DNA of 59,623 nucleotides, from contig DAHVDE010000088.1 of the NCBI GenBank assembly GCA_027313705.1, forward strand, positions 1 to 59,623, read 5' to 3'. This document shows positions 3,468 through 54,980 of the stretch, piece after piece (positions within the stretch are counted from its first letter, which is position 1; the number at the start of each line of letters is the position of its first letter). The position numbers were made by a program, and so were the translations under genes. Below the pieces are notes generated by a model. It was not told the DNA's origin. It worked only from the letters and a program-made list of their open reading frames with translations, and did not search any database. Source of the stretch: Actinomycetota bacterium. Lineage in GTDB: Bacteria; Actinomycetota; Actinomycetes; Streptosporangiales; Streptosporangiaceae.

Positions 3468-5687
3468 TCAATCTACTCCAAGCGTATCTAACGGTTTTCC
3501 CTCGATGACCACATCAAGTCGTCGAGTGCGATGAACTTTGACGACTCGGAACGGTAGCTTAAGAATTTCATGATTGCCCTTGATCCAAGACCGCTGGTCA
3601 TCGCTCAGCTTGTCGCTACTTGACTTGACCTCAATGAATTCAACGTCCTGCGGCCCGCCCGGAGTATCACGCCTCGTCATCAGATCAGGCCAACCGAGGA
3701 AGCGCTCCCAGTAGGACTCAGCCAGATAACGCAAGATCAGCTTCACGAGTGGAGCACCGAGCACAGTTATGAGTTGACGGGCGCGCTGTTCGTCCTCCTC
3801 GGTGTATGCCCACAAGTACTGACGTAGAGGACGCGATGGCTCTTGCCAATAATCGTAAGCCCACAGCATTTCAGCCGTATCGTTGGGCAGCATATCCATG
3901 TGGGCGTCCAGTGCTTGTCCGCGACGACGGGCATGCGCTGCGCTGCCGAAGTCATGAGGCAGCAACGTCCAAATGAGTCCGTGCTCGTCGGTTCCTACGC
4001 CGTCGCGTCCGCCGAAGCCGCTCGGCCTGAGACGAGGGTCGTCTGGAGACTGCACCCACAGCCACATGAGGTTGCCGAACAGCGTTTGAAGCGGCCGACT
4101 CTCGCAGAACATGACTTCACGGCCCTGCGCCCGTAGTTGCCTTGCAACGAACTCCTCGACCTGGACGCCTTGAGCCGGATCGTCGACGTCGAGCGGGAGC
4201 ACCAGGGCGGGGCCAGCGGAGCGGACTAGGTAACAAGCTGGAACGCTCTCGACGGTCACGTCGTTGGTCTTGATGACATCGGCATCTGACGGCCTGGTGA
4301 AGTCATACTTCGGATGCAGCGCATGGGTAGCTTTTATACGCTCGATGACTGAGCACTCGATCTCGGCGTACTTCTCTGCGTGCTCTCGTCGATAGTCGAA
4401 GAACTGAGCCTTGCCACTCTCGTCGAGTAGCGGGAGCCCCTCCGCTCGACACCAGGCCAGAAACTCAAGCGCTGTGTCTCGATAGATTTCATGCCAGTAA
4501 TATCTGTGAATCAGGCTGGCAGATCCGCGATGAGCCGCCTTCGGATAGGCCTTCGGCTGTTCACCCCTGCACTGGTCACATACATCAGGCGTGAGAGGAT
4601 GCGTCACTCTCACGTCGTCACGTGTGTGCTGGTCAGTGCCGGTCATTGCCTGGTGTGGCGAGACGTAGAGTGCGATGTCCTGGTCACACAAACAGGTCAT
4701 GACGGCCGAGCAGTCACTGCACACATACTTACGCAACGACTCCCACGGGTTAAGGAGCGTGCGATTATGATGTGTGCATGTATTGCTTGGCCGAGCCATA
4801 TTGTGCCATCCATCAGTAATATGCTGGGAACTGACCAGCGAAGAGCAGACCCACTGCTCGAAGGCGGCTTTAAGGTTGCCTTTGGCTGCAGCGTCATAAG
4901 CTTTCCGGGCTCTGCTTACGGCTGTATCAAGCTTTGACAAAGCATCCTGTTTCAATGACTCCGAAGAGTAGGCATGAATCCGCCCAGTTGTGCCGGTGGG
5001 GTCATTCATCGAGGCGAGCTTGATCCCTTGCAACTCCTCAAGCAGGAGACAGATGTCCATCCAGTAGACGACAGCGTTCTGACGGCGAGTGTATGCGGCG
5101 GCCCGCATTTCTAGGTAGAACGACGATACGGGAACGTTCCGGTAGTACTTCCAGGCCTTAACGAGTCGCGCCAGGGCTTTGGCCTTCCCTTTTACCGGCA
5201 TCGTGTTGGACTCGTTGACATAATCAAGGTGTGCCTCAGGTGTAGACTGCATCCATTCGGTCGTAACCCCAGGGATGTTGTACTTCATGTTATCACCAAC
5301 CTGCTGGAGCAAGTAGGCTGGTATAACCTCTACACGCTCGTATCCGGCACCGAAATCAAGGACGACGGCAGGTTTCGCTACATGAATATACGTCGATGGG
5401 TAGCGTTCTTTCAGGGCGTCACGCACTGCAGAAAGTGCGCTTGATCCGTATGCGGGCTTTGACGACTTGAGCGATGCAAACAGGTCGACGTCACTATGGC
5501 CGCTGACGCCGGTTCCGTGTCGAAACGATCCACTCTCAAAAATGCGGTACAGCCCGAACCTAGCGTGGAGCTTTGCCTCTATCCCCACACGATGAGACGC
5601 AGCCTTGGCACGTTCGGCATCGGTCGGGGTGATGCGGCTAAGGAACGCCTCGAACCCTTCGTTAGCGGTCTTAGCCACTACTCTCAT
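3468..5687 (-). CDS. CD-NTase (SMODS) fused to a cysteine-rich linker and VRR-NUC nuclease
   Basis: This encodes 739 residues. Residues 1-290 form a CD-NTase: GSFRHGTG at 53-60, catalytic SDVDLF with D66 and D68, a third acidic residue in VEVIPA (E120), and the helical LVKAWKYYRN...SSFYLE region. Enzymes of this family make cyclic oligonucleotide signals. The middle (about 297-400) carries CTHH, CSDC, CLC and CDQC motifs, a likely zinc site. The tail has VRR-NUC/PD-(D/E)XK features: GWPDL near 665, EVK near 686-688 and DDQ near 697. ATG 5685-5687 overlaps the SLATT gene by 17 bp. GTG 5676-5678, 9 bp after a GGAG, is an alternative start. An upstream in-frame start at 5834 would add an unrelated extension. 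A CD-NTase is normally a separate gene of about 300 residues, so the fusion is unusual; ATG 4797-4799 could also yield the nuclease half alone. Confidence 0.85.
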   Translation of the reverse strand: MRVVAKTANEGFEAFLSRITPTDAERAKAASHRVGIEAKLHARFGLYRIFESGSFRHGTGVSGHSDVDLFASLKSSKPAYGSSALSAVRDALKERYPSTYIHVAKPAVVLDFGAGYERVEVIPAYLLQQVGDNMKYNIPGVTTEWMQSTPEAHLDYVNESNTMPVKGKAKALARLVKAWKYYRNVPVSSFYLEMRAAAYTRRQNAVVYWMDICLLLEELQGIKLASMNDPTGTTGRIHAYSSESLKQDALSKLDTAVSRARKAYDAAAKGNLKAAFEQWVCSSLVSSQHITDGWHNMARPSNTCTHHNRTLLNPWESLRKYVCSDCSAVMTCLCDQDIALYVSPHQAMTGTDQHTRDDVRVTHPLTPDVCDQCRGEQPKAYPKAAHRGSASLIHRYYWHEIYRDTALEFLAWCRAEGLPLLDESGKAQFFDYRREHAEKYAEIECSVIERIKATHALHPKYDFTRPSDADVIKTNDVTVESVPACYLVRSAGPALVLPLDVDDPAQGVQVEEFVARQLRAQGREVMFCESRPLQTLFGNLMWLWVQSPDDPRLRPSGFGGRDGVGTDEHGLIWTLLPHDFGSAAHARRRGQALDAHMDMLPNDTAEMLWAYDYWQEPSRPLRQYLWAYTEEDEQRARQLITVLGAPLVKLILRYLAESYWERFLGWPDLMTRRDTPGGPQDVEFIEVKSSSDKLSDDQRSWIKGNHEILKLPFRVVKVHRTRRLDVVIEGKPLDTLGVD

Positions 5688-6189
5688 CTCCGTGTTCGTC
5701 TGCCTGATAATGCTGTGCGCCCTGCTCGATCGACCGTCTGGCCCGATGCCAGGCGCCAGGCGACGGGATCTCAGCCGCCTGATTAAGTTGCTGCAGCCGC
5801 TGAACGATCTGGCCGAGCTGATCCCGAGCTTCATTGTCCACTAGGTTCGGCAGATCAATGTTCAAGAAGATCCGCACATCCTGCTGTAGTGCGCGATAGG
5901 CAGTGGCGGAACCTGAGGCCTTCTCCTTCGTCTGGGGCGCCCCCATGGAAGCCGCAATGGCTCCTATCCCTGCGGCTAGGACTGCGACAAGCCCTGCCCA
6001 TCTCGCCGAAAATACCTGCGAAAGCCCACCAATACCGGCCACCGCGGCCAAGGCGGCTGCGGCGCCTCCGATCCAGCGATCGACACGACGCCACCGCTTG
6101 GCGTACTCAAACTGTGTCTCCGACGCGTAGGTAGCAGATTCAAGTATGCGACTTGCCTCGTTACGAATCTCGTCCTTTGTTGATGCCAC
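5671..6189 (-). CDS. SLATT-family two-TM protein, predicted membrane effector
   Basis: This encodes 172 residues from a GTG start. A charged N-terminal helix (YAKRWRRVDRWIGG) leads into two adjacent membrane helices (about 40-60 and 67-85), then a cytoplasmic helical tail. This is the SLATT layout; such proteins are predicted to be pore-forming effectors that respond to nucleotide second messengers made by linked SMODS nucleotidyltransferases. The gene overlaps the CD-NTase/VRR-NUC start, so the two are translationally linked, which fits synthase plus effector. It begins 88 bp after the C5 methyltransferase. The exact SLATT subfamily cannot be settled by eye. Confidence 0.8.
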   Translation of the reverse strand: MASTKDEIRNEASRILESATYASETQFEYAKRWRRVDRWIGGAAAALAAVAGIGGLSQVFSARWAGLVAVLAAGIGAIAASMGAPQTKEKASGSATAYRALQQDVRIFLNIDLPNLVDNEARDQLGQIVQRLQQLNQAAEIPSPGAWHRARRSIEQGAQHYQADEHGDESSG

Positions 6190-6277: not shown

Positions 6278-7339
6278 TCATTTGGCTGCCTCGATAACCT
6301 GCCTCGCGACCTTCTCAGCCAGCAGCGGCGGTACGGAGTTTCCGAGCTGCGCCTGGATGCTGGCGCGGGAGCCCACCAATTCGAACTCGTCGGGAAAGGT
6401 GAACAGCCGCTTGATCTCGCCGACACGCAGCCGCCGGTTCTCCCAGTGGAAGGGCCCGACGTTCGGACCAGGCTGGGCCTGGATCGTTGGAGACGGCCGC
6501 TCGGGGTCGAGCTTCAGGAGGAATGACCAATACCGGCTACGCCACTTGAACTGTGGATCGGGATGGCCACGTTCGGCCGTGTAGTGGAGGTAGTTCTCAC
6601 CAGGCGGGATGTCTGGCAATAGATGCGCGTACTGCCCGCGCAGCACCTCGCCGGGTTCGGGCTCGCAGTCGAGGCCAGCTAGCGCCTGTCCGGTCGTGAC
6701 ATGTGGGGTCGTTCCAGCACCTGACATCCGACGCTCCCACATGCCCGTGTGGCTCGGCTCGGGCAGCTCAGGCAGACGGCACCCCTTGGGTACTCCAACG
6801 ATGAACAGCCGCGGCCTCACCTGGGGCACGCCGTAGTCGGCCGCGTTGAGGACCTTGGCGTCGAAGCTATAGCCCGCCTCGTGGATCTCCCGTAGCAGCC
6901 GCTTATACGCAGGTCGGCTGGCCTGGTTGTTGTAGGTGAGCGCGTAGACGTTCTCCAGGATGAAGGCCCGAGGTTTCGCCTCAGCCAGGACGCGCGTGTA
7001 AGCCTGCAACAAGCTGGCACCGGGGTCGAGCCCAGCGCGCTTCCATTCCAGCCAGAACCCGGACTTGGAGAACGGGGTGCAGGGTGGCCCGCCGACAAGC
7101 AAGTCCGGGCGTTCGCTGGTGCCCAGGCCTGCCTTCTCCAAGATTTCCCCGGTGGGCGTGTCGAGGATGTCTTGGCGGATGACCGGCGAGACCAGGTGAT
7201 GGAAGTTCTTCTCCATGGTGAGAACGGCGTCGGCGTCATGCTCGACCGCTGCCGCCACCCGGAACCCGGCCGCCTCGACGCCCAGATCGAGACCGCCCGC
7301 CCCGGAGAACAACGAGATCGCCACAGGTTGGTCTGCCAT
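6278..7339 (-). CDS. DNA (cytosine-5-)-methyltransferase
   Basis: This encodes 353 residues of normal length. The C5-methyltransferase motifs are all present in order: FSGAGGLDLG (motif I, SAM binding) at the N-terminus, GGPPCTPFS with the catalytic cysteine (motif IV), ILENV (motif VI), QVRPRLFIVG (motif VIII) and GNSVPPLLAEKVARQV (motif X). It methylates cytosine in a specific site and should protect DNA from the neighbouring endonuclease. It starts 68 bp after the endonuclease stop and precedes the SLATT gene by 88 bp, so one transcript could carry all four genes. The recognition site cannot be read from the sequence. Confidence 0.93.
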   Translation of the reverse strand: MADQPVAISLFSGAGGLDLGVEAAGFRVAAAVEHDADAVLTMEKNFHHLVSPVIRQDILDTPTGEILEKAGLGTSERPDLLVGGPPCTPFSKSGFWLEWKRAGLDPGASLLQAYTRVLAEAKPRAFILENVYALTYNNQASRPAYKRLLREIHEAGYSFDAKVLNAADYGVPQVRPRLFIVGVPKGCRLPELPEPSHTGMWERRMSGAGTTPHVTTGQALAGLDCEPEPGEVLRGQYAHLLPDIPPGENYLHYTAERGHPDPQFKWRSRYWSFLLKLDPERPSPTIQAQPGPNVGPFHWENRRLRVGEIKRLFTFPDEFELVGSRASIQAQLGNSVPPLLAEKVARQVIEAAK

Positions 7340-7407
7340 GCCAGCCAGGATCGCATGCCCTAGTGACAGTGGGGCCGTGACGCACCGATTGGGACGAAGG
7401 TGACCGG

Positions 7408-8196
7408 CTAGTCTCCGGGGGGTGTCTGGGTCTGCTGGGCCAGGAGCTTGTTGAGCTGGTTGCGGACGGTACCGCCGATGCGGAAGTTGTAGGCACGCCA
7501 GAACTTGTAGAACTCGTCGGCCGTCTTGAACTCGCCCCGGCCCTGGCGAAGATCTTCCAGGTCGAGCACCGCACCGAGGTACTCACGGGTGGTAGACGAG
7601 CGCTTGCGACTGCCGATGCGCCACGGCTCCTGGACGATGAGCTCCAGGTCATCGACGCGGGAGGCGCTGTCGCGGTTCAGCGTATAGATGCCGATGACAT
7701 CCAGGTGCTGGACATAGTCAGCGAAGGGCCGGAACGTGCCCGGCCAGTGCAGCGTCGGGTAGGCAAAGTAGGTGTTGCCGGTGTAGAGCGTGATCCGGCT
7801 CTGGGTCTGGGTGGGCGGAGTTTTCTTGGTGACCTTACGCTGAGCGATCTTGATGTCAACGGCGTAGAAGGCATCGCCGACACCCGGCCCGGAGACTTCA
7901 AGATCCGGATAGAAGCGCTCGCCGCCTCTCGTCGCGGTGAGTGCGCCGTCCGAGGCCGCGATCCGATCGAGCAGGAAGTCAACGATGCTGACCTCGAGCA
8001 CGTTGGCCAGAGCCGCCGGTTCCTTCGGTAGGGGCAGCAGATGCCCGTGATCGTGAAGCTGCGCTTCAAGGTCACCCGCATGCGTAGCGGTCAGGGGCCA
8101 GTGCGTACTGCCCGCGGTGCGGAAGACGCCACGCAGGTCGTACACGTACTCCTGGCACTGCGCACGCAGCCACTGCTGCAGATTGACGGTGGTCAC
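7408..8196 (-). CDS. EcoRV-like type II restriction endonuclease
   Basis: This encodes 262 residues. The active-site pattern YPDLEV followed about 14 residues later by AVDIKI matches the PD...DxK arrangement of EcoRV-type enzymes, which have D, D and K as metal ligands. Downstream, SRITLYTGNTYF and a YVQHLDVIGIYTLN segment resemble the EcoRV-like family as I remember it. I chose GTG 8194-8196 because VNLQQWLRAQC looks like the true start; an in-frame ATG at 8250 would add 18 residues. Its partner is the C5 methyltransferase immediately downstream. EcoRV itself pairs with an adenine methyltransferase, so the cut site here probably differs. Confidence 0.8.
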   Translation of the reverse strand: MTTVNLQQWLRAQCQEYVYDLRGVFRTAGSTHWPLTATHAGDLEAQLHDHGHLLPLPKEPAALANVLEVSIVDFLLDRIAASDGALTATRGGERFYPDLEVSGPGVGDAFYAVDIKIAQRKVTKKTPPTQTQSRITLYTGNTYFAYPTLHWPGTFRPFADYVQHLDVIGIYTLNRDSASRVDDLELIVQEPWRIGSRKRSSTTREYLGAVLDLEDLRQGRGEFKTADEFYKFWRAYNFRIGGTVRNQLNKLLAQQTQTPPGD

Positions 8197-8230
8197 CGCC
8201 CAATCCTGGCATCTGACTGGTGACTGCGCA

Positions 8231-8333
8231 TACCTGACACGTCGCAGCATGTTACAGGTAGGAGCAACAAGGTCGCAGCTACAGAACCTGTCAGCCGAGA
8301 CTTAGGTACTAAGTCAATCGTAAGTCCTACCTG
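8231..8333. promoter_or_regulatory. repeated TACCTG/CAGGTA boxes upstream of the endonuclease
   Basis: Upstream of the endonuclease start are TACCTG (8231-8236), CAGGTAGGA (8255-8263), ACCTG (8286-8290) and TCCTACCTG (8325-8333). The second and fourth form a 9-bp inverted repeat, and the first and second a 6-bp one. Such repeated half-sites suggest a regulator-binding promoter region, as in controlled restriction systems. No controller gene is visible nearby, so this is tentative. Confidence 0.35.
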
Positions 8334-11403: not shown

Positions 11404-11610
11404 CGGTCGTCCTTCCGTTGTGATCTTGCCCGAATTTGCTCGGACCTCGGGTCGATCCTGGACCAGGATGGGACGAATCGTCAAGGTGGCTGGATGGTAA
11501 GACTTCCCCTACGGGCGCGGGATGATCACGTCTGTCGGGGACGATCCATCACCGAGGCGTCAGGAGTGCCGGCATCGCGGGTAGCTTTCCTGATGGGAGG
11601 TGTGCGTAGC

Positions 11611-12630
11611 TTGAACATCAACTCCACCGTCGCCGGGCTGACCGATGAGCTCAGTGACTACGTCGGCCTGATGTCTGGTCTCGCCGTCACGTCTGCCGAC
11701 GTGGTCCGTCTGGTGGAGCGAGACCTCGCATCTTCGGACGAGTCAGAGTGGTGGTACTCGCCAGGCGGTTGGATTCACGGAGCACCCCAGCAGTGGGTAC
11801 GGGTCCGCGCCGAGGACTTGGAGTCGTTGGTCATGCGGCTGCTCTACGCGGTCGGAGCGCTACCTAGCCCATGGAACCAGATGCAGCTGGCCCGGAAATT
11901 TGCCTCAGAGCATCCGGAGATCGTGGATAGCATCCCGCCATCGCCCGACGAGGATGAGTCCCCTTTGCCAGTGACGCCATGGGTGCGCTTCTTCTGGCTC
12001 GTCAGCAGCGGGAGAGTTACCAAGAAGACGCCGCCTGAGCTGAGGGAGTTGATGACCGACTTCAAGCATCGCTCGATCATCGATCTCATATTCCGGACCG
12101 AGCGAGTTTCGTGGGACGGCAGCATTCCGTTGCGGGAGCTGTTTCACCTCGGCGACCTCGGCGCTGGCCTCACGGCCAACCAAGCCTCGGCCGCCTTGAT
12201 CGACCAACGGTTTATCGACTACCTCCACGCACAGCCCGAAGACCTGTCGCGAATGCACTGGCGGCAGTTCGAGTTCCTGGTCGGTGAGTTCTTTCGTCGT
12301 AACGGCTACGACGTTCACGTGACCCCGCCGAGCGGTGACGGTGGTGTGGACGTGCGGGCTGTACGTGGTGGAGGGATAGTTGGGCCAGAACTCATCCTGA
12401 TCCAGGCGAAACGATTCGCTGATGACCGCCAGGTCGGCATCGAGACCGTGAAAGCGCTGTGGAGCGACATCAACGAAGCAGCAGCCACGCGCGGCGTCAT
12501 AGCGACCACCTCGACGTTCGCACCGGGTGCACGCGCTTACTGTCAAGCTCGGCAGTACCGGCTGACGGCGGCAGAACGACCAATGGTAGAGAGCTGGCTC
12601 AAAGCTATTGCCACCTACCCTCGCTCGTAG
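11611..12630 (+). CDS. Mrr-like restriction endonuclease
   Basis: This encodes 339 residues from the chosen start. The C-terminal 130 residues are an Mrr_cat PD-(D/E)XK domain: WRQFEFLVGEFFRRNGYDV, the catalytic SGDGGVDV, then LILIQAKRF (QxK). The N-terminal 200 residues are helical and unrecognised; they may be the targeting domain. The TTG at 11611 has GGGAGG ten bases upstream; ATG 11593 and 11494 are in-frame alternatives. Mrr-type enzymes usually cut modified DNA, which fits the defence setting. It is convergent with the ThiF gene, 8 bp apart. Confidence 0.82.
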   Translation: MNINSTVAGLTDELSDYVGLMSGLAVTSADVVRLVERDLASSDESEWWYSPGGWIHGAPQQWVRVRAEDLESLVMRLLYAVGALPSPWNQMQLARKFASEHPEIVDSIPPSPDEDESPLPVTPWVRFFWLVSSGRVTKKTPPELRELMTDFKHRSIIDLIFRTERVSWDGSIPLRELFHLGDLGAGLTANQASAALIDQRFIDYLHAQPEDLSRMHWRQFEFLVGEFFRRNGYDVHVTPPSGDGGVDVRAVRGGGIVGPELILIQAKRFADDRQVGIETVKALWSDINEAAATRGVIATTSTFAPGARAYCQARQYRLTAAERPMVESWLKAIATYPRS

Positions 12631-12638: not shown

Positions 12639-14183
12639 TCAGGACGGTGGTGTCGGGAGTGGCTGCAGGAGCGTCTCCAGGACGCGGAAACTGTACGAGG
12701 CCATGAGCACGGTACGGCCCGCTGGACTGATCAGGCGCCAGGTGACGGTGTCAGTGCCAAGCTTATTCGGGTTGCCGAAAGAAGCTACGAGGTTGCCATC
12801 GTCACCGAAACCCATGCCATTGCTCAGTTCTACGCACATGCCAGAGGCACCGCCGTACGCTTGAGCGTTGGCGCTCTTTGACCAGGGATCGCCCCGGCTC
12901 GACCACTCGTCGTGGTAGCCCTGCTGGCAGAGAGCGCTCACGACGCTCTTGGTGAGGCCGCTGACTTCAAGCACGACCTGGTCACCGCTGTACAGGTTCC
13001 CGCTCGTGCAGTCACTGCCGTCGTTGGCATAGCTGCTGGTGTATCTCGGGTCGCAGATCAGGCGGGTCTGCGACGGTGGAATCGGTGCCCCAGCCGCAGG
13101 CCGGGCTGACGATGTTGCCGCCCCACCAGCGCCTGACGTCCCTGCAGGCTGGTTCGAGGGACCAGCCTGCGACCCTGCCGTAGTGGGTCCGCTGACCAAC
13201 CAGGCGACGGCCAGGACAAGGAGGACTGCAGAGGCGGCTACGGCGGCAAAGATCTGGGCGAATCGACGCCGTCGCAGGTGACCTGTGCTGTCCCACGATG
13301 GGCCTGTGGCAGCCGGAGCCGTGGTAGTCGGCGGGTGCGGCTGTGGCAACGTCTCCGCATCAACTCGCGACGGGTCGGCTGCGGACAGATCCTGGCCGCC
13401 ACAGGCTGGGCAAGGCGCGAGCGGAAAGGGAACGCGAACGTTGCGGCTGTAGAGCCCAGTGTTGGGGAAGCTGGCCCGGATGCCGGGCGAGGTTGGCGTC
13501 AGGCCGTGAACGTAGATGGCGGTGCGCTGCGGGTCAAGGATGGCCGAGCGCTCGTCTGCCGGATTGAGCAAGGCGGCTACAACCTGGGCGGTGGCCAGGG
13601 CGACGAGCTGGATGTCGACGCGGGCGCCTCTGGCCGCCTGGGCATCAGCCGACGCCTGCCGGAACGACACCCAACACTCGTAGCACGGCGTGTGGCGACC
13701 AGGGAGGACCCAGAGCAGCTCGCCAACCTCGGCATCGCGGACGCGCGGGTCCACCCAGACGGCCGGGTACACGGCAGGAACCTCGGCAACCAGGCAGTTC
13801 TGGTTGACGCGGCGCTGGCAGTCGGCGGAATCAGTCGCAGCAACGACAACGTCAGCAGCGTTAACGAGCTGCAGCTGCTCATCTATGGGCAGTTCCAGGT
13901 AGTCAGCATCAAGGCCGGTGGCGTCGCACGTCGGCAGGTCACGGCAGATCTTCTGGGCTAGGGCTGAGGCCTTTGGCTGGCCTATTGCCTGAGCACCCAG
14001 CGGATGCCGGACGATGTTCTCAACCGCCAGGACGTCGGGATCGACGAGCCACAGCGGGCTGCAGCCGATCCGCGCCAGTTCCTCGGCCAGGAAGCCACCG
14101 ACCGCCCCCGCACCGACAATGAGGACCGCGCCCCGGCGGCGATGATGCCGTGCGTAGACGCGGTCCTCGGGCAGCTCGGTCAA
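12639..14183 (-). CDS. E1-like ThiF adenylyltransferase with TM helix and outer domain
   Basis: This encodes 514 residues. Residues 1-270 form a ThiF/MoeB/E1 fold: VLIVGAGAVGG (nucleotide loop), NIVRHPLG with the arginine used in adenylation, GQPKASALA, and two CxxC zinc pairs (CYEC, CPAC). A proline-rich linker leads to a membrane helix (about 308-330, IFAAVAASAVLLVLAVAWLV). A 180-residue low-complexity and globular outer region with several cysteines follows. Such enzymes adenylate the C-terminus of a small protein or peptide. The TTG start overlaps the stop of the 59-residue gene (TTGA), suggesting coupling. An E1 domain joined to an extracytoplasmic domain is unusual; no E2 or JAB gene is nearby. 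Confidence 0.82.
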   Translation of the reverse strand: MTELPEDRVYARHHRRRGAVLIVGAGAVGGFLAEELARIGCSPLWLVDPDVLAVENIVRHPLGAQAIGQPKASALAQKICRDLPTCDATGLDADYLELPIDEQLQLVNAADVVVAATDSADCQRRVNQNCLVAEVPAVYPAVWVDPRVRDAEVGELLWVLPGRHTPCYECWVSFRQASADAQAARGARVDIQLVALATAQVVAALLNPADERSAILDPQRTAIYVHGLTPTSPGIRASFPNTGLYSRNVRVPFPLAPCPACGGQDLSAADPSRVDAETLPQPHPPTTTAPAATGPSWDSTGHLRRRRFAQIFAAVAASAVLLVLAVAWLVSGPTTAGSQAGPSNQPAGTSGAGGAATSSARPAAGAPIPPSQTRLICDPRYTSSYANDGSDCTSGNLYSGDQVVLEVSGLTKSVVSALCQQGYHDEWSSRGDPWSKSANAQAYGGASGMCVELSNGMGFGDDGNLVASFGNPNKLGTDTVTWRLISPAGRTVLMASYSFRVLETLLQPLPTPPS

Positions 14184-14359
14184 TCGAAGGTCTGGCGCGC
14201 CACCCGGATCGGCTGCGGCCGAGTCTCGGGGTCCTCGCCGGGCTCAACCTCTGGCTTAAGCTCGCCGGTCGTGGTGTCGAGGAACCACTGACGCTCGCTT
14301 TCGCGGAGCTGGTCCCTGGTCTGGCGGAGTTCTTCTAGGATTTTCGGTGCATTCCCCAT
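14180..14359 (-). CDS. 59-residue protein coupled to the ThiF-like gene
   Basis: ATG 14357-14359 follows a strong GAGGAGGAA ribosome site. The product starts MGNAPKILEELRQTRDQLRE, an amphipathic charged helix, and ends with an acidic, proline-containing tail, PIRVARQTFD. Its stop overlaps the ThiF start. The context invites the idea that it is the substrate or partner of the E1-like enzyme, but it has no diglycine end and no ubiquitin-like fold that I can see. No family is recognised. Confidence 0.6.
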   Translation of the reverse strand: MGNAPKILEELRQTRDQLRESERQWFLDTTTGELKPEVEPGEDPETRPQPIRVARQTFD

Positions 14360-14556
14360 GGCATTCCTCCTCGATCCGAGGGAGAAACAGGATACCACGG
14401 GTATATATTTCCCATGGGTCACGCAAGTTCACTTTTTTCCCGCTAAACACTCGAATCATCAGTGATCTCTTCTGTAACGGCAGTCTCGGTTCTCAACACG
14501 CATTCGCCCGACGCACATTTACCTTGGGGAACCCCGAATTTCAGAAGGAGTGCCCA

Positions 14557-16091: not shown

Positions 16092-17165
16092 GTGCCGAGT
16101 CCGAAACTGGTGCCGCTGGTGCTGACCGATGACGAGCGGCGGACGCTGACCGGGTGGGTGCGGCGGCGCACGACCGCGCGGGCGCAGATCGTGCTGGCCT
16201 GTGCCGGGGGCGGGTCGATCGCGTCGGTGGCCGCTGAGCTGGGCGTGTCCCGGAACATGGTGTCGAAGTGGCGGAGCCGGTTCCTGCGCGACCGGCTGGA
16301 AGGGCTATCTGATGAGCCGCGGCCGGGCCGGCCCCGGACGGTCACCGACGAGCAGGTCGAGCTGGTCATCACCAGGACCCTGGAAGAACGGGGCCCGGGG
16401 CAGGACACGCACTGGTCGACCCGGTCGATGGCTGCGGCGACGGGCCTGTCGCAGACGGCGGTATCGCGGATCTGGCGGGCCTTCGGCCTTAAGCCGCACT
16501 TAGTCCAGACCTGGAAGCTGAGCACCGACCCGAAGTTCATCGAGAAGGTCCGCGACATCGTCGGCCTCTACCTCGACCCGCCGGCGAAAGCGCTGGTGCT
16601 GTGCGTCGACGAGAAATCACAGATTCAGGCGCTGAACCGGACGGCGCCCTGCCTGCCGATCCTGCCGACGACCCCGGCGCGGCGGACTCATGACTACGTG
16701 CGCAACGGCACCACCAGCCTGTTCGCCGCCTTCGAGACCGGCAGCGGATCGGTAATCGCCCAGCCGTACCGCCAGCACCGGCACCAGGAGTTCATCCGGT
16801 TCCTCAAGCTGATCGACGGCGCCGTCCCGAAGGACCTGGACCTGCACCTGGTCCTGGATAACTACGCCACGCACAAGACACCCGAGGTCCGGAAATGGCT
16901 GCTGCGCCACCCCCGGTTCCAGCTGCGCTTCACCCCGACCAGCGCCTCGTGGATGAACCTGGTCGAGCGGTGGTTCGCCGAGCTGACCAGGCGCAAGCTC
17001 CGCCGCTCCGCCCACCGCAGCGTCACCGAGCTCGAAGCCGACCTCCGCAGATGGACCAACGAATGGAACCGGAACCCCAGGCCCTTCGTCTGGACCAAGA
17101 CCGCCGACGAGATCCTCGACACCCTCGCCGCCTACTGCCAGCGAATTAACAACTCAGGACACTAG
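16092..17165 (+). CDS. IS630-family transposase
   Basis: This encodes 357 residues from a GTG start. An N-terminal helix-turn-helix (SIASVAAELGVSRNMVSKWR) and a second DNA-binding segment precede the DDE catalytic domain, with VLCVDEKSQ (first D), LVLDNYATHK (second D) and SWMNLVERWF (E). Length and motifs are intact, so it may be active. The stop codon TAG (17163-17165) is built from the duplicated TA target plus the first flanking G, so the element carries no stop of its own. Confidence 0.93.
   Translation: MPSPKLVPLVLTDDERRTLTGWVRRRTTARAQIVLACAGGGSIASVAAELGVSRNMVSKWRSRFLRDRLEGLSDEPRPGRPRTVTDEQVELVITRTLEERGPGQDTHWSTRSMAAATGLSQTAVSRIWRAFGLKPHLVQTWKLSTDPKFIEKVRDIVGLYLDPPAKALVLCVDEKSQIQALNRTAPCLPILPTTPARRTHDYVRNGTTSLFAAFETGSGSVIAQPYRQHRHQEFIRFLKLIDGAVPKDLDLHLVLDNYATHKTPEVRKWLLRHPRFQLRFTPTSASWMNLVERWFAELTRRKLRRSAHRSVTELEADLRRWTNEWNRNPRPFVWTKTADEILDTLAAYCQRINNSGH
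17143..17162 (-). repeat. right terminal inverted repeat of the IS630 element
   Basis: On the minus strand it reads GTGTCCTGAGTTGTTAATTC. It abuts the target TA at 17163-17164 and overlaps the last codons of both the transposase and the CHAP gene. Confidence 0.85.
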
Positions 17166-18584
17166 CTGGTACGTCGTGACTGAGTTGCCAGGTGTCCAGT
17201 ACGACTCGTCGATCGCTCCGTTGTTCATTCCGGTGAACACGGGGTATGTGCTCCCGGTCAGGCCGAACGCGATGCTGTTGATTTGATTGCCCGGATTACC
17301 GAGCGTGGTTGTGTTCGGAGAGCTCGACCTGGGAACCCAGTAGGTCTCGTAGTCATATCCGTTGGCAGCTCCGCTGAACACGTGGTATGTGCCGCCCGTC
17401 AGAGCGAATGCGATGCTGCTGACGGACGAGCCGTAGCCGACCAGCGTGCTGTCGGTCGGTGAGATGGACCCGGGGACCCAGTAGGTCTCGTGGATCGTCC
17501 CGTTGGCCAGGCCGCTGTAGACGTGGTACGTGGTGCCCGTCAGGGCGAACGCGATGCTGTTGACAGACGATCCGGAACCGACGTTGTACAGCGTCGCGGT
17601 AGTCGGTGAGCCTCCAGAGGTCCAGTAGGTCTCGTAGATATATCCGTTCGCAGCTCCGCTGAACACGTGATAGGTGCTGCCCGTCACCGCGAAGGCGATG
17701 CTGTTGACGGATGATCCGTAGCTCACGAGCGTGTCGGTGGTCGGCGGGACCGACCCGGGAACCCAGTACGTCTCGTAGATCGCTCCACTCGACGTGCCCG
17801 TGAACACGTGGTACGTGCCGTCGGAGGTGACTGCGAAGGCGATGCTCTTGATGGCCGAACCGACGTTCCCGAGGCTGTCGGTGGTCACCGAGTTCCCGGG
17901 GGTCCAGTACGACTCATCGACTGTACCGTCGGACATGCCACTGAAGAGGTGGTACGTGCCGTCGGAGGTGACCGCGAAGGCGATGCTGTTGACTGTGCCC
18001 GCGGATGCAAGGTCCTTGAAGTGGATGAAATGGCTCGGCCAGTACCCACCTCCGGGCGTAATGGTTCTCCAATCGAATGGGCCATACTGCCAGTTGTCTT
18101 CAGAAACAGTGATTGACTGGATCGATCCATCACTGTTCTTGGATACGGCCTCCACATATGCAACGTGGCCGCTGGAGTCCGCTCCGTGATATCCAGCTTC
18201 CCATTGCGCGACCGATCCGACACCCGGAGTGGTGTCTACGGTAGTCCCGTCCGCCGTCGCGTTGTTATCCCACTCAGAGGCGTTGCCCAAGTGGTTCGGC
18301 GTGGGCGTGGACGCACCGTTCACGGCTTGCTCGACGTACGCAGCGTAGTTCGTACAGTTGTGACCGGAGAACTCGCTCCAGTACATGTTGCCATTGTTCG
18401 CGCCGTAGCCGTGATCTGTGTAGCCGATGCCGGTGCAGTTGCTGTAGCTGTTGTTAGAACATAGGCTTGTGTCGGCGAGGGCAGGCTTGGCGCCGCTCAG
18501 GATGAGCCATGCCGACAACAGCCCTAGGAATAGCACGAAGACGACAGGCGTTCGCCTGACCCTTCTTGCCGCCGTCGTATTCAC
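17154..18584 (-). CDS. secreted CHAP amidase with six propeller-like repeats, 3' end altered by IS630
   Basis: This encodes 476 residues. A signal peptide (about 1-38, cut after ALA) precedes a CHAP domain with C77 (GHNCTNYAAYV), H140 (GHVAYVEAV) and N164 (SEDNW), a cysteine amidase or endopeptidase acting on peptidoglycan. From about residue 200 six repeats of about 46 residues follow (SIAFAVT, then TYHVFSG, then ETYWVPG), the number expected for a six-bladed beta-propeller, probably for wall or sugar binding. The IS630 insertion changed the end from LANVG-stop to LVS-stop, so the protein is almost unaffected. Confidence 0.85.
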   Translation of the reverse strand: MNTTAARRVRRTPVVFVLFLGLLSAWLILSGAKPALADTSLCSNNSYSNCTGIGYTDHGYGANNGNMYWSEFSGHNCTNYAAYVEQAVNGASTPTPNHLGNASEWDNNATADGTTVDTTPGVGSVAQWEAGYHGADSSGHVAYVEAVSKNSDGSIQSITVSEDNWQYGPFDWRTITPGGGYWPSHFIHFKDLASAGTVNSIAFAVTSDGTYHLFSGMSDGTVDESYWTPGNSVTTDSLGNVGSAIKSIAFAVTSDGTYHVFTGTSSGAIYETYWVPGSVPPTTDTLVSYGSSVNSIAFAVTGSTYHVFSGAANGYIYETYWTSGGSPTTATLYNVGSGSSVNSIAFALTGTTYHVYSGLANGTIHETYWVPGSISPTDSTLVGYGSSVSSIAFALTGGTYHVFSGAANGYDYETYWVPRSSSPNTTTLGNPGNQINSIAFGLTGSTYPVFTGMNNGAIDESYWTPGNSVTTYQLVS

Positions 18585-20559: not shown

Positions 20560-20721
20560 ATGTCAAAACGGATTCGGATTACCGCGATTTACAGGCAGGA
20601 ACCGGAGATCAGGCTGTTCGTGCTCGCCCTCATCGAACTAGCCCGCCAGCTCAACGAAGCCGAACAAGCCGCTCGCCCGCCTAGAGCCGAGGGTCAGCAA
20701 GTCGGAGATAGCAGCCAGTGA
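20560..20721 (+). CDS. small helical protein (53 aa) coupled to the VirD4-like gene
   Basis: The ATG at 20560 sits within GGGGGTGAGTGATG. The product, MSKRIRITAIYRQEPEIRLF onward, is helical and charged. Its stop overlaps the GTG start of the VirD4/TraG-like ATPase (GTGA), so the two are coupled. Function is unknown; a small accessory role in transfer is inferred from position only. Confidence 0.55.
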   Translation: MSKRIRITAIYRQEPEIRLFVLALIELARQLNEAEQAARPPRAEGQQVGDSSQ

Positions 20722-22994
20722 AGGATCTCGCACTTCTCCTCATAACGCTGGTCTGCGGATGTGCTCCGGCTGGTGGGCTCTTGCTGCTACGGGTTCGCAG
20801 CGCGACCCGGTGGAGCGGCAACCTGGTCGCGTACGCGTTGCAGTTTCCACGGGGCCTGGACGCGGGAGCGGTCACCGCCTTCGTGAGCGGGCTGTCGGGT
20901 CTTGCCGTGCCGAAGTCTCGTCGGCCGTTCATCGTGCGGGCCGTGGTGCTGGAGACGACGGCCACCCACGAGGGGATCGAGCACCATCTCATTACCGCGC
21001 AGGCCGATTCCCACATCGTGCTGACTGCTCTGCGCGCCGCTCTGCCCGGCGTGGCGGTGACGCCAGCCCCCGACTACCGCCTGATGCGGCCGATGTTGGC
21101 CACTGAACTCGGCTTGTCTAACCACCGGCGACCGCTGGGCGTGGACAAGCCAGGCGTGGTGAGTTCTCATGTCCTGGCAAGCCTCCAGCCGGTCGAACCC
21201 GGCGAGCAGGTCATCGTCCAATGGTCGGCGCGCCCCGTCGGCCCGCTGCCCCTGGTGCTAGCGGCCGTCAAGCGGCCCGCCAAGCAAACCTGGTTCGACC
21301 AACTGTGGGATGCATTCAGCGCCCGCGAGTACAACGCCGAGACGGTCAAGGCCGCTCGGGCCAAGCAGGCGAGCCCGGTCTTCATCTGCTCGGGGCGAAT
21401 CGGGGTCGCAAGTGCCAGTCCGAAGCGCGCGCACTTGCTGCTCGGCCGGACCCTGGCCACGTTCCATTCGGCCAGTGCCCCGAGCGTGCGCCTATACCGG
21501 CGGCGACTGCCCAGCGGAATAGTCGTACGAGCACTGCACGAGCGGCGGCTCCCGCTCCTGACGTATCCGTGCACCCTCAATGCGGCCGAGCTGGGCCCGC
21601 TGGCGGGACTCCCACTAGGCGACGTGACCTTGCCGGGACTGCGGCTGGGCGGTAGTCGGCAGCTCGCCCCGGCGTCCGACATCCCTTCCGGAGGACGGAT
21701 CGTGGCTCAAGCCACCTTCCCCGGCGCGGAACGGCCGCTGGCCATATCGCTGACTGACTCGCTGCGACATCTCCATCTCATCGCCCCGACCGGGGCCGGG
21801 AAGTCCACGGTGATGCTCAATCTCGCCGCTCAGGATATGGCGGCTGGCCGTGGCATCGTCGTGGTTGACCCCAAGGGCGACCTGGTGGCCGACGTGCTCG
21901 ACCGAGTACCACCGAGTCGGGTTGGAGATGTCTGTCTGCTCGATCCGACGGACGAGGAGCGCCCGGTCGGCCTCAATCTGCTCAGCGGGGCGACCGCTGC
22001 TCCTGAGCTGGTGGCTGATCAGGTGGTCGGGATCTTCCACCAGCTGTACGCCTCATCGTGGGGGCCACGGACGGCTGACATCCTGCGCTCGGCGCTGCTC
22101 ACGCTGGCTGACGAGCCCGGGATGACGCTGTGTGAAGTGCCGCTGTTGCTCACCGACCCGGCCTTTCGCAGGAGGCTGGTCGGCCGTATCGATGACCCGA
22201 TAGCGCTCGGGCCGTTCTGGGGCTGGTTCGACGGCTTGTCGGAAGGTGAGCGAGCAGCGGCTATCGGGCCGGTCATGAACAAGCTCCGCGCCTTCCTGCT
22301 ATCGCGGCGGCTGCGCAATGTGCTCGGCCAGGCCCGACCCAAGCTGGATCTGGACCAGGCCTTGGCAGAACGGCGGATTCTGCTCGTGCCACTGGCCAAG
22401 GGCCTCCTGGGCGATGAGGCCGCCGCGTTGATTGGCTCACTGCTAATCGCGCGACTCTGGCAGGCCGTCCAGCGCCGCGCTGCGCTGTCGGCTGACGGTC
22501 GGCCGCTGACATTCGCCTACATCGATGAGTTCCAGGATTACCTGCATCTGCCGACGAACGTCGCCGACGTCCTGACACAGGCCCGGGGCTTGGGCCTCGG
22601 GCTGACGTTGGCCCATCAGCATCTCGGGCAATTGCCTCCGGCGGTGCGGGATGCGGTGCTGGCCAATGCCCGCAGCCGGGTCATCTTCCAGCTCTCGGCG
22701 GCCGATGCCCAGACGTTGGCCCGCGAACTGGCTCCCCATCTGACCGCGACGGATCTTGGCGGACTCGGCCCCTACGAGGTTGTCGCCAGCCTGTCCACGG
22801 GCGCGCGAGTGGCTCCGCCGGTAACTGGGATCACGTTGCCGCCTCCGCCGAGCACCGGTCAGGCCGCCGCCGCTCGCGAAGTCTCGCGCAGGCGCTACGG
22901 CATCGACCGCCAAATTGTCGAGCGCCAAATCCGAGCCCGCCACGAAGGCCGCCCGGGCAGTGGTGCGGTCGGACGACGGGAGGCGCGATCATGA
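20718..22994 (+). CDS. VirD4/TraG-like coupling ATPase
   Basis: This encodes 758 residues. A membrane helix near the N-terminus is followed by a large region and an ATPase core: Walker A IAPTGAGKSTVML, then VVVDPKGDLVADVLDRV, and a Walker B-like FAYIDEFQDYLHL with ARGLGLGLTLAHQHLGQLP. These are marks of type IV coupling and conjugation ATPases that recruit DNA or protein to a transfer channel. The gene begins the main operon and overlaps the next gene by 4 bp. No VirB4-type partner is seen in the window. Confidence 0.87.
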   Translation: MKDLALLLITLVCGCAPAGGLLLLRVRSATRWSGNLVAYALQFPRGLDAGAVTAFVSGLSGLAVPKSRRPFIVRAVVLETTATHEGIEHHLITAQADSHIVLTALRAALPGVAVTPAPDYRLMRPMLATELGLSNHRRPLGVDKPGVVSSHVLASLQPVEPGEQVIVQWSARPVGPLPLVLAAVKRPAKQTWFDQLWDAFSAREYNAETVKAARAKQASPVFICSGRIGVASASPKRAHLLLGRTLATFHSASAPSVRLYRRRLPSGIVVRALHERRLPLLTYPCTLNAAELGPLAGLPLGDVTLPGLRLGGSRQLAPASDIPSGGRIVAQATFPGAERPLAISLTDSLRHLHLIAPTGAGKSTVMLNLAAQDMAAGRGIVVVDPKGDLVADVLDRVPPSRVGDVCLLDPTDEERPVGLNLLSGATAAPELVADQVVGIFHQLYASSWGPRTADILRSALLTLADEPGMTLCEVPLLLTDPAFRRRLVGRIDDPIALGPFWGWFDGLSEGERAAAIGPVMNKLRAFLLSRRLRNVLGQARPKLDLDQALAERRILLVPLAKGLLGDEAAALIGSLLIARLWQAVQRRAALSADGRPLTFAYIDEFQDYLHLPTNVADVLTQARGLGLGLTLAHQHLGQLPPAVRDAVLANARSRVIFQLSAADAQTLARELAPHLTATDLGGLGPYEVVASLSTGARVAPPVTGITLPPPPSTGQAAAAREVSRRRYGIDRQIVERQIRARHEGRPGSGAVGRREARS

Positions 22995-23908
22995 GCGGCC
23001 CGGGTTCCGGTCGCTCTGCCGATCGCGTGACGAAGGCGGGCGCGTCCACGCAGGTCAAGACGACCAGCAGTGGCCAATTCGCAGACGGCTCCTGTACCTC
23101 ATCCGATGTCGCAACGAAGAGGCCCAGCTACGTGACGGCGCGGCGGCTGACGAGCTTGGAGCGCTCCCTGTTCGAACGAGACCGCCAGGTCCTGGCCACC
23201 CTGGCGCGGGTGCGGGTAGCGACGGCTCACCAGCTCTACCAGCTCCACTTCGAGGGGGTCACGCGTCGTCAGGGCCGGGCGAGTCTGGCGTCGCTGGCTG
23301 ATCGTCGGCTGATCACGCGGCTGCCCCGGGTCGTCGGCGGCGTCCGGGCTGGTTCGACCGGCTACGTGTACACGCTCGACGTGGCCGGCCAGCGCCTCAT
23401 GCGCCCAGATCACGACCGGTCGCAGCGGCCCTGGAGCGTCGGCCGCGCCTTCCTGGACCACAGCTTGGCCGTGACCGAGGTCTATGTGCAGCTCGCCCTT
23501 GCGCAGCGCGACGGACGGCTGCGGCTAGCGGACTTTTCGACCGAGCCCACCTGCTGGCGGCGCTTCCACGGCCAGGGTGGTGTCCGGCTCGTGCTCAAGC
23601 CGGATGCGGCCGCGCGCCTGGTGCTCGGACAGTACGAGGACCGCTGGTTCCTGGAAGTCGACCGAGGCACCGAGTCGAGCACGGCTATCGCGCGCAAGTG
23701 CGAGCTGTACCGGCGCTACTGGCAAGCGGGAGTCGAACAAGCACGTATGGGCGTGTTCCCCAAGGTGCTCTGGCTTGTGCCGGATGAGCGTCGTCACGCC
23801 GTGGTGGTGGACGTTCTCGGCCGGCAGCCGGCCGAGGCCTGGCCGCTGTTTGCCAGCGCGCTGTTCAATGATGCGGTCCAGCGGTTGCTCCGGGGAGCAG
23901 GCGAATGA
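22991..23908 (+). CDS. replication-relaxation family protein
   Basis: This encodes 305 residues. A winged-helix-like segment (RDRQVLATLARVRVATAHQL) leads into the domain with the features of the replication-relaxation family: VGRAFLDHSLAVTEVYVQL, PDAAARLVLG and WFLEVDRGTES. Members relate to plasmid relaxation or replication and sit beside VirD4-like ATPases in mobile elements, as here. It overlaps both neighbours by 4 bp, so the three genes form one translationally coupled block. Confidence 0.85.
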   Translation: MSGPGSGRSADRVTKAGASTQVKTTSSGQFADGSCTSSDVATKRPSYVTARRLTSLERSLFERDRQVLATLARVRVATAHQLYQLHFEGVTRRQGRASLASLADRRLITRLPRVVGGVRAGSTGYVYTLDVAGQRLMRPDHDRSQRPWSVGRAFLDHSLAVTEVYVQLALAQRDGRLRLADFSTEPTCWRRFHGQGGVRLVLKPDAAARLVLGQYEDRWFLEVDRGTESSTAIARKCELYRRYWQAGVEQARMGVFPKVLWLVPDERRHAVVVDVLGRQPAEAWPLFASALFNDAVQRLLRGAGE

Positions 23909-24891
23909 CCGAGCTACCCCGCAACACCATCTTGGTCGGTGATGCGGCTAGGCGGCTCCGCGAATTGCCGGGCGCCAGCGTGGACTGCGTGATCACATCA
24001 CCGCCGTACTTCCAGCTGCGTGATTATGGGGCGGCTGGACAGATCGGCCTGGAACCCCAGGTGGATGGCTGGGTGGCGGCGCTACACCGCGTCTTCGCTG
24101 AGGTGGCCCGGGTGCTCAAGCCGACCGGTGCGCTGTGGCTCAACCTGGGCGACAGCTTCTCCCGACGCCATCGCTACGGCGCACCCCCGAAGAGCCTGCT
24201 GCTCGCCCCTGAGCGGCTTGTGCTAGCTCTGGCGGACGATGGCTGGATCGTGCGCAACAAGGTCATCTGGGCCAAGACCAACCCGCTGCCGTCATCGGTG
24301 ACTGACCGGCTTAGCCTGACCTACGAGGTCGTCTACTTCCTGGTGAGGTCCGCCAAGTACTTCTTCGACCTGGATGCCATCCGCGAACCGCACCGCTCCA
24401 GCGCGGCTAAGCGGGCCCGCCCACCGCTCAACCTGACGCCAGATTGGGCTGGGCCGCTGGCCGCGACGCTGGGCGGTCTGCGCCGAGCCCGGGCAGCGGG
24501 CACGCCGGGTCACGTGTTGGGCAAGAACCCCGGTGACGTCTGGCAGATCGCCACCCATGGCTTTCACGGCGCGCACTTTGCCACCTTCCCTGAAGCACTT
24601 GTCCGGAAGCCGATCCTGGCCACCTGCCCGCGGGCTGTCTGCGTCGCCTGCGGCCAGCCCTGGCGGGAAGAGGCTCAGATCGGCCAAGGGACGCTCGCGC
24701 CCTGCGGGTGCGGAGCCAAGGCGCGGCCTGGCGTCGTCCTGGACCCGTTCTTCGGCAGCGGCACGGTCGGCCTTGCCGCCCAACGGCTGGGCCGCGACTG
24801 GATCGGCATCGAGGTTAACCCCGCTTATGTCGAACTCGCCCAGGACCGGCTCGCGACATCGCAGCCAACCGAGACGGAGGCGGCGGCGTGA
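23905..24891 (+). CDS. DNA N4-cytosine or N6-adenine methyltransferase, beta-class order
   Basis: This encodes 328 residues. Motif IV (TSPPYFQLRDYG, about residues 31-42) comes first, and the SAM-binding motif (DPFFGSGTVGLA, near 280) last, the beta-class order. A zinc-ribbon insert (CPRAVCVACGQ followed by CGCG) lies between. It probably methylates element or host DNA to evade restriction or set a regulatory mark; no cognate nuclease is adjacent, so it is an orphan. It overlaps the replication-relaxation gene by 4 bp. Confidence 0.9.
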   Translation: MTELPRNTILVGDAARRLRELPGASVDCVITSPPYFQLRDYGAAGQIGLEPQVDGWVAALHRVFAEVARVLKPTGALWLNLGDSFSRRHRYGAPPKSLLLAPERLVLALADDGWIVRNKVIWAKTNPLPSSVTDRLSLTYEVVYFLVRSAKYFFDLDAIREPHRSSAAKRARPPLNLTPDWAGPLAATLGGLRRARAAGTPGHVLGKNPGDVWQIATHGFHGAHFATFPEALVRKPILATCPRAVCVACGQPWREEAQIGQGTLAPCGCGAKARPGVVLDPFFGSGTVGLAAQRLGRDWIGIEVNPAYVELAQDRLATSQPTETEAAA

Positions 24892-24966
24892 GCCCTCGTC
24901 GGTGTCGTGCGGCCGCAGGAGCCATCCATCCGGATGACCGGCCGCACCCGCACCGAGGAGGAAGCA

Positions 24967-25293
24967 ATGCCCGAACCACGCAACGGCAGCGTCAAGACGC
25001 TCGCCATCCGGCTCGCGGACGACCTGCACGCACAGCTCAGTCTCGTAGCCCAACTCGACGAACTCACGCTGACCGACGCCATCCGGCGAGCCATTGAGGA
25101 GTTCATCGAGCGCAAGCGAGCCGAGGGCGACTTCGCTGCCCGAGCCGCCGCCATGCTCGAAGAGATCGACCGCGAGGCGGCCACCCGTCGCCAGTCGATC
25201 GAGGCACTCTTCGGCACGGCCGGCCCGCCCGACGCGGCAGCCGACCCGCCCAAGGGCCGCGCTCGCTCCAAGAGCGACGAGCCAAGCGTGTAG
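24967..25293 (+). CDS. ribbon-helix-helix protein
   Basis: This encodes 108 residues. The ATG follows GAGGAGGAA. The N-terminal strand and two helices (VKTLAIRLADDLHAQLSLVA, then LTLTDAIRRAIEEFIERKRAE) are a CopG/Arc fold, with a charged helical and proline-rich tail. It is likely a DNA-binding regulator of the element, or an antitoxin without a visible toxin. A terminator follows at 25313-25346. Confidence 0.75.
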   Translation: MPEPRNGSVKTLAIRLADDLHAQLSLVAQLDELTLTDAIRRAIEEFIERKRAEGDFAARAAAMLEEIDREAATRRQSIEALFGTAGPPDAAADPPKGRARSKSDEPSV

Positions 25294-25312
25294 CCACCCG
25301 GCTGCACCATCC

Positions 25313-25346
25313 GGGGGAAAGGGCGGCACCTGCCGTTCTTTCCCCC
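25313..25346 (+). terminator. intrinsic terminator after the transfer operon
   Basis: GGGGGAAAG (25313-25321) pairs with CTTTCCCCC (25338-25346), and an inner CGGCA/TGCCG extends the hairpin. It separates the transfer block from the XRE/ImmA block. Confidence 0.6.
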
Positions 25347-25482
25347 GCACCCAAGTCACCTTCATCAGATCTGCCAAGACAAAGTCCGAAAATCATTTAA
25401 ATAATTGGCCAGGAACCGTCGACCATCGTCCACGGGAAGAATAAAATTGATGTACCGGAAGAAACGAAAGGATTTACCAAAA

Positions 25483-25869
25483 ATGACTGATGACACTAAT
25501 ACCAAAAACGTGGAACAGGCGACGGCTCGGCTGGGCGCACACGTACGCCATCTGCGCCAGATCAAGGAACAGAGCGTTCGCGGGTTGGCTGCAAGGGCCC
25601 AGGTTGACGCCACCTGGCTGTCCCGCCTGGAGCACGGCATCTATGCCTCACCAGACCCACGCTCACTCTGGCGCTTGGCACAGGCACTGGAGATCGACGT
25701 TGAAGAACTCTATCTCGATGCCGGGTACTCAGACGGTCGCGGCCTGCCGGGGTTCGGCCCTTACCTGCGCGCTAAATATGACCTGCCTGCTGAAGCCATC
25801 TTGCAGTTGGAAGCCCATTTCGAGCTGATCAGCGAAAAGTATCATGATAAGAAAGGAGAAACTCTATGA
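25483..25869 (+). CDS. XRE-family regulator, partner of ImmA/IrrE peptidase
   Basis: This encodes 128 residues. The helix-turn-helix spans about 18-75 (LGAHVRHLRQIKEQSVRGLA, then DATWLSRLEHGIY). ATG 25483 has AAAGGA upstream; an earlier ATG at 25450 is possible. Its stop overlaps the start of the ImmA/IrrE gene (ATGA). In ICEBs1-type switches the peptidase cleaves the repressor to trigger excision; a similar switch for the adjacent serine recombinase is inferred. Confidence 0.82.
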   Translation: MTDDTNTKNVEQATARLGAHVRHLRQIKEQSVRGLAARAQVDATWLSRLEHGIYASPDPRSLWRLAQALEIDVEELYLDAGYSDGRGLPGFGPYLRAKYDLPAEAILQLEAHFELISEKYHDKKGETL

Positions 25870-26429: not shown

Positions 26430-26461
26430 TGGACAAAGTGGCCTCGACAGGAGGGCTGATC

Positions 26462-38707: not shown

Positions 38708-38739
38708 CCTGTGCATAGCGACGCTACACATTGCTTTAC

Positions 38740-54979: not shown

Positions 54980-54980
54980 T

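Follow-up and report, generated by a model that had tools for sequence, protein, structure and literature searches.

An E1-like adenylating enzyme that ends in a membrane helix and a small, aspartate-terminated protein encoded directly upstream of it form a real, conserved two-gene family beyond chance, to judge from the linkage of the two genes in all 15 loci compared and from the selection acting on the core and the tail of the small protein. The pair was recognised in a contig of an Actinomycetota bacterium of the Streptosporangiaceae (DAHVDE010000088.1, assembly GCA_027313705.1), of which positions 1–59,623 were analysed (59,623 bp, hereafter the window). The positions of all features of the pair are listed in Table 1. 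No account of such a pair was recognised in a literature search covering open-licence papers.

Fourteen further copies of the enzyme were found by searches, giving 15 loci including the window. The homologues came from four sources: genome contigs (loci L007 and L008); 100 relatives, four of which matched, namely the window genome, a true relative (G033) and two genomes with JAB-E1 fusions; 392 genomes from the genus to which Streptomyces sp. NTH33 belongs, with four matches of which three were new; and 200 genomes of the family of the same strain, with 11 matches of which eight were new. The JAB-E1 fusions (G031 and G055), another ThiF protein (L009) and a fragment in G033 (L018) were excluded, and G606, representing the same place as G293, was counted once. 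The fragment in L018 (G033:C540; 1501–1632, minus strand) belongs to an additional copy of an enzyme of this family and lies near a CBS-domain gene. Carriers of the pair are scattered soil bacteria, and pairwise identities among the 15 loci were 61–94% for the enzymes and 42–95% for the small proteins.

The enzyme was found in 2 of 394 members of a class-wide sample, the window genome and one already known, and the profile of the small protein matched 1 of 297 in the order of the window, which was the window itself. G033 carries the pair, yet neither the order sample nor the class sample listed it as a match; it may not have been sampled. In the reverse search, the small-protein profile gave five matches in the 392 Streptomyces genomes: the same four as the enzyme profile, all with E-values no higher than 3.1e-32, and a single weak one (G361, E 5.4e-4). 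The latter was a long frame overlapping other frames, with no E1 in its 3.1-kb locus, and was treated as a chance match. Neither plasmids nor phages gave a match to the window enzyme, a plasmid search with the small protein of L007 was likewise negative, and searching viral contigs with patterns for the enzyme and the small protein gave no confirmed relative. Five weak plasmid matches were obtained with the L007 enzyme; the two that were examined were ThiF genes in CBASS-type operons.

Table 1. Features of the two-gene locus in the window (DAHVDE010000088.1), with the evidence for each
Feature	Position (bp)	Strand	Evidence
Small partner gene	14180..14359	-	59-aa ORF, ends ARQTFD
Shine-Dalgarno-like GAGGAGG ahead of the small gene	14366..14372	-	Sequence
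Small protein, conserved core, residues 23-37 (RQWFLDTTTGELKPE)	14249..14293	-	pN/pS 0.33 over 15 sequences
Small protein, conserved C-terminal tail, residues 50-59 (PIRVARQTFD)	14183..14212	-	pN/pS 0.32; no variation at R52, A54, R55 or the final D in 15/15
E1-like enzyme gene, 514 aa	12639..14183	-	ORF; Pfam ThiF 4.7e-24; TTG start overlaps small-gene stop codon
Adenylating domain, residues ~1-270	13374..14183	-	Invariant residues, MoeB alignment, fold matches
First CxxC pair, C167/C170	13674..13685	-	Present in 15/15
Second CxxC pair, C258/C261	13401..13412	-	Present in 13/13 copies reaching that far
Transmembrane helix, residues 311-329	13197..13253	-	Mean hydropathy 2.64; comparable helix in 13/13 C-terminally complete copies
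Outer part, residues 330-514 (185 aa), four Cys	12642..13196	-	Window copy only

The initial annotation had described a small protein directly upstream of the enzyme and overlapping it, and had suggested searching for conserved pairs of the two genes. Such pairs were found: the small gene directly precedes the enzyme gene in all 15 loci, and at the window junction (GATTGA) its stop codon TGA and the enzyme start codon TTG overlap. The enzyme starts at an overlapping TTG in 13 of the 15 loci and at an overlapping ATG in L024; in L055 the genes are separated by a 12-base gap, which rules out that the overlap of stop and start is universal. In 8 of the 13 loci with an overlapping TTG, the window included, no other ATG, GTG or TTG start follows the in-frame stop; the other five have a GTG further upstream. 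Because the overlapping TTG is the sole possible start in those 8 of the 15 loci, the tail of the small protein is not double-coding there. In a comparison of seven loci, five (L007, L008, L022, L023 and L024) carried the motif TAxCGTxG(A/G)AA ahead of the small gene; it was not seen in the window or L011.

The small protein matched no Pfam family. It measures 59 aa in 13 of the 15 sequences and 65 and 72 aa in the other two, where the extra residues lie in the linker; a fixed length of 59 aa held for the first seven sequences and was given up when all 15 were compared. Invariant over the whole set are M1, G2, A4, P5, W25, L27, D28, G32, L34, P36, R52, A54, R55 and the last D, and the consensus reads WxLDxxxGxLxP in the core and VRVARWxFD in the tail. 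The last residue is aspartate in every sequence and is directly preceded by an aromatic residue in 14. A tryptophan occupies the fourth position from the end in 13 sequences, replaced by glutamine in the window and arginine in L011. The C-terminal residues first noted in the window are therefore conserved as regards the final aspartate, and QTFD as a whole is a minority form (WTFD in 9/15).

Over 15 sequences, pooled pN/pS was 0.52 for the N-terminal part, 0.33 for the core and 0.32 for the last ten residues; the linker, measured in the 13 small proteins of equal length, gave 0.76. The first seven sequences had given 0.53 for the N-terminal part, 0.19 for the core (residues 21–37), 0.22 for the tail and 1.13 for the linker. 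By these ratios, selection at the protein level acts on the core and tail of the small protein, while the linker is fast-evolving and variable in length. The structure model, poor as a whole (mean pLDDT 58), has a helix at residues 7–21, strands at 25–27 and 34–36, and an unstructured tail. Ring formation through three side chains was considered and rejected: K35 is replaced by arginine in 2 of the 15 sequences, T57 by isoleucine, leucine or valine in four, and W56 is absent in two, including the window.

The window enzyme matched Pfam ThiF at 4.7e-24 (85.3 bits, cut-off 28.1) over residues 17–205, and Pfam detected no E2 domain in it. Twelve residues are invariant in all 15 enzymes (G24, G26, G29, D48, N56, R59, K71, T117, D118, C122, C167 and C170), as are C258 and C261 in the 13 long enough to include them. 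Alignment with MoeB placed R59, K71 and D118, present in 15/15, opposite MoeB R73, K86 and D130, which PMC12355090 names as active-site equivalents. Foldseek and VIA-align matched the enzyme model with E1/ThiF folds (ThiF, MoeB, UBA5, Atg7 and the SUMO E1; Z 16.6–18.6 among the matches listed); the model had a mean pLDDT of 53 and was good only at about residues 20–50 and 70–140 and in the helix. The ThiF/E1 domain with adenylation residues and the two CxxC pairs proposed in the initial annotation were thereby confirmed, with no sign that the ATP-binding geometry is lacking; zinc binding by the CxxC pairs is probable by homology.

No cysteine occurs at residues 171–200, taken as the crossover-loop region, in any of the 15 enzymes; C86 and C122, which do not vary, lie outside it. 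Assuming the assigned start codons, some 18–36 residues precede the nucleotide-binding strand, and 8 of the 15 enzymes have no earlier ATG, GTG or TTG. Given these starts, there would be no room for an N-terminal RRE. The helix of the window enzyme is preceded by LRRRRFAQ. Twelve of the 13 C-terminally complete enzymes stop 2–7 residues past the helix, and those other than the window's, of 308–329 aa, consist of E1 and helix. The helix-fused outer domain that had been described is indeed present in the window copy; as a defining part of the enzyme it did not hold up, being found in 1 of the 13 complete copies and having no other match in 60 genomes.

By family profile, the nearest E1s among the loci compared were JAB-E1 fusions (7.2e-30 and 7.5e-24); other proteins with ThiF and E2-E1 scored from 7.6e-14 to 3.3e-5, and PADLOC E1-E2 models reached 3.5e-28. 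Among PDB sequences Cap2 matched best (7tsq, 4e-14), with TcdA at 8.5e-10 and MccB at 4.5e-6. A single-sequence search with the L023 enzyme placed MoeB first (1.3e-9). NCBIfam scores stayed below cut-off for both ThiF (59.5 of 275 bits) and TcdA (34.5 of 304 bits). In sequence, the enzyme leans to conjugation-type E1s rather than to MccB.

The JAB-E1 fusions, found in two actinobacteria (L012/L046 and L013/L047; operons at 5134–8102 of L046 and 5948–9740 of L047), have the closest E1 domain and an upstream partner gene whose product also ends in aspartate (NNLDD and NIGQD). They differ from the present family in their fused JAB domain (Pfam), in that no terminal membrane helix was seen, and in their partners, which are 186 and 381 aa long, have no Pfam match and are E2-like by eye only, whereas the small protein is mostly 59 aa. 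A likeness of the helix-hairpin modules of these partners was seen by eye and discarded, as 19 of 150 shuffles were as good. Two of 20 matches of the L046 fusion were examined, and one lay in a CBASS-type operon, the other not. ThiF/ThiS and MoeB/MoaD share the E1 fold, the ATP-site residues and the two CxxC pairs with the present enzyme; their partners, however, are Gly-Gly beta-grasp proteins, whereas the partner here ends in aspartate in 15/15. TcdA, the tRNA t6A dehydratase, is a single-domain E1-like protein, as is the present enzyme, and has a membrane tail; we know of no peptide partner for it.

Cap2 of type II CBASS is likewise an E1, and activates the C-terminus of a protein without a ubiquitin fold, the CD-NTase (PMC10097602). 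Its own features are a fused E2, a substrate that requires a C-terminal glycine or alanine (PMC10097602), a predicted catalytic cysteine and the CD-NTase partner, whereas here no E2 domain was recognised and the end is aspartate. MccB, PaaA, GrcB, EnfB and IndF have a small precursor gene beside that of the adenylating enzyme, as found here, and an equally spaced arginine and lysine in the ATP site. Enzymes of this type carry an N-terminal RRE (PMC12250964; PMC12150305) of about 90 residues, for which the present enzymes would lack room; the membrane helix of the latter is a further difference. In ThiF-like peptide enzymes a nucleophile attacks the ThiF-made adenylate directly, and IndF joins the C-terminal isoleucine of IndA to the indole of the tryptophan three residues before it (PMC12150305), a spacing equal to that of the tryptophan in 13 of the 15 tails described here.

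The ORFs around the 14 loci other than the window were compared by blast. Among the matches listed, nothing was common beside the pair, except for synteny among three genomes and a few ORFs common to two or three; an MFS-type ORF recurred in 5 of the 14 loci at varying distance. No transporter or protease, and no E2, JAB or sulfurtransferase, recurred beside the pair among the matches listed for these 14 loci, in which some neighbours were unannotated. The pair looks self-contained by this comparison. Some copies have stress-type genes in their vicinity (a globin and a flavohaemoprotein-like gene in L007, a universal stress protein gene in L023, a phosphoribosyltransferase gene in L011, and nitroreductase and pyridoxamine oxidase genes in L065); none of these recurs beside the pair.

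The window copy sits among restriction, CBASS-type and mobile-element genes. An Mrr-type endonuclease gene (11494–12630, plus strand; 7.7e-23) runs towards the enzyme gene; no recurrence of such a gene was seen at the remaining loci. A CBASS-like pair (3468–6189, minus strand) comprises a 788-aa ORF with SMODS (CD-NTase) and VRR-NUC nuclease domains in one frame and, overlapping it, an ORF for a 2TM/SLATT-type effector; the joining of SMODS and VRR-NUC may merit attention. A C5 cytosine methyltransferase gene is followed by one for an EcoRV-like endonuclease (6278–8250, minus strand; Pfam 9e-52 and 1.4e-9), likely a type II restriction-modification pair. Mobile-element genes on the plus strand (20718–28330 and 36564–40340) encode a coupling-protein-like ATPase, a serine recombinase, an FtsK-type ATPase and a tyrosine integrase. 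Elsewhere in the window are a protein with an N-terminal CHAP domain (Pfam) and repeats (17154–18584, minus strand; 141-base tandem repeat), a 1025-aa protein with a C-terminal CHAT domain (46160–49237, minus strand; 9.7e-35), and 15-base tandem repeats of 13 and 7 copies (57497–57693 and 54974–55077) in or near pentapeptide-like repetitive frames.

Based on these comparisons, the two genes may encode an enzyme and its dedicated substrate, the C-terminal aspartate of the small protein being adenylated at the membrane and passed straight to product; we give this reading a little less than an even chance. The E1-like domain would face the cytosol, tethered through its C-terminal membrane helix, and would bind the small protein through the N-terminal helix and conserved core of the latter. 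The tail, which reads VRVAR(W)x(F)D and is flexible, would enter the ATP site. There the carboxylate of the last aspartate would be adenylated, to judge from the conservation of the ATP-site residues and from the aspartate found at every C-terminus. The adenylate would go straight to product, as in MccB/PaaA/IndF-type enzymes, so that a peptide modified at its C-terminus, cyclised or conjugated would arise at the membrane. The tail is the likely substrate because a docking part, a free linker and a tail with an invariant aspartate are encoded just ahead of an E1-like enzyme whose ATP site is intact. That the adenylate would be used directly is suggested by the lack of a cysteine in the crossover-loop region, and action at the membrane by the membrane helix of the enzyme. 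An indole ring is ruled out as the universal product, because the tails of the window and of L011 have no tryptophan. Counted against the substrate reading were the lack of the RRE that published ThiF-like peptide enzymes carry, the lack of a transporter or protease recurring beside the pair among the matches listed, a possible thioester at another cysteine, given that C86 and C122 are invariant, the weak similarity of the small-protein core to Prok-E2_A, the closer sequence relation of the enzyme to conjugation-type E1s than to MccB, and the low confidence of the small-protein model (mean pLDDT 58).

The sequence relation is also what favours ubiquitin-like conjugation, in which the small protein would be a non-beta-grasp tag attached by its C-terminus to membrane-located proteins. 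The profile matches to JAB-E1 fusions and PADLOC E1-E2 models and the PDB match to Cap2, with the E-values given above, are in line with this, as is the Cap2 precedent of a non-ubiquitin protein activated via its C-terminus (PMC10097602). C122 is invariant as well. However, the pair has no recognised E2 or JAB domain and none recurs beside it among the matches listed, the crossover-loop region has no cysteine, and the aspartate end differs from the glycine or alanine that Cap2 needs (PMC10097602), so that we regard conjugation as unlikely. Rather than a substrate, the small protein could be an accessory subunit of the enzyme or regulate it, and might be what is left of the C-terminal end of an E2 domain, given that its core weakly resembles the last part of Prok-E2_A. 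One of seven small proteins scanned gave a weak match to the C-terminal portion of that family (E 0.059, 13.3 bits, cut-off 25), and hhalign of the core to eight Streptomyces E2_A segments scored above 200 of 200 column shuffles with both 7 and 15 sequences. This alignment spans 17 residues at 15–18% hhalign probability and was tested after the match had been noticed, and a subunit would leave the invariant C-terminal aspartate behind a free linker unexplained; we rate the chance that the small protein has such a role as low.

A sulfur-carrier function, in which the enzyme would make a thiocarboxylate on the small protein as ThiF and MoeB do on ThiS and MoaD, would fit an enzyme that has a single-domain E1 fold, closest to ThiF and MoeB among others, and two CxxC pairs. 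It is very improbable in view of the missing Gly-Gly end, of the approximately 37 residues before the linker, which in the poor model seem too few for a beta-grasp fold, and of the fact that no sulfurtransferase recurs beside the pair among the matches listed. Finally, the small ORF might be a translated leader that merely couples or regulates translation of the enzyme, as stop and start codons overlap or adjoin in 15/15; amino-acid-level selection in two blocks around a free linker nearly excludes this, and we consider it hardly credible. The initial annotation had gone on to propose a new conjugation, peptide-modification or signalling system. This interpretation is supported in part, by the joint conservation of the small protein and the enzyme and by the ATP-site residues kept in 15/15; none of the three functions in particular was borne out. 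The pair has no recognised E2 or JAB domain, no cysteine in the crossover region and no C-terminal glycine.

Compared with known E1-like enzymes that have a dedicated small partner, what is new here, on the sequence evidence, is the combination of no RRE, no crossover-region cysteine, an Asp-ended partner and a membrane tail. We propose, as a more doubtful extension of the enzyme-substrate reading, a class of peptide activation in which a tail-anchored, RRE-free E1-like enzyme would adenylate, on the inner side of the membrane, the C-terminal aspartate of a dedicated small protein with its own docking module. The peptide would thereby be cyclised or conjugated at its C-terminus with neither an E2 nor a crossover-loop thioester. 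Such peptides might serve in membrane signalling, stress response or defence, and the window copy would add an extracellular sensor-like domain. One published search for ThiF-like peptide enzymes kept enzymes with a fused RRE only (PMC12150305), and as described there it would miss the present family. If the proposal is true, an E1 domain can take a non-ubiquitin, Asp-ended peptide at the membrane without RRE, E2 or crossover cysteine. In sequence the enzyme is near the E1s of bacterial ubiquitin-like conjugation, in layout the pair is like peptide natural-product systems, and it may link both.
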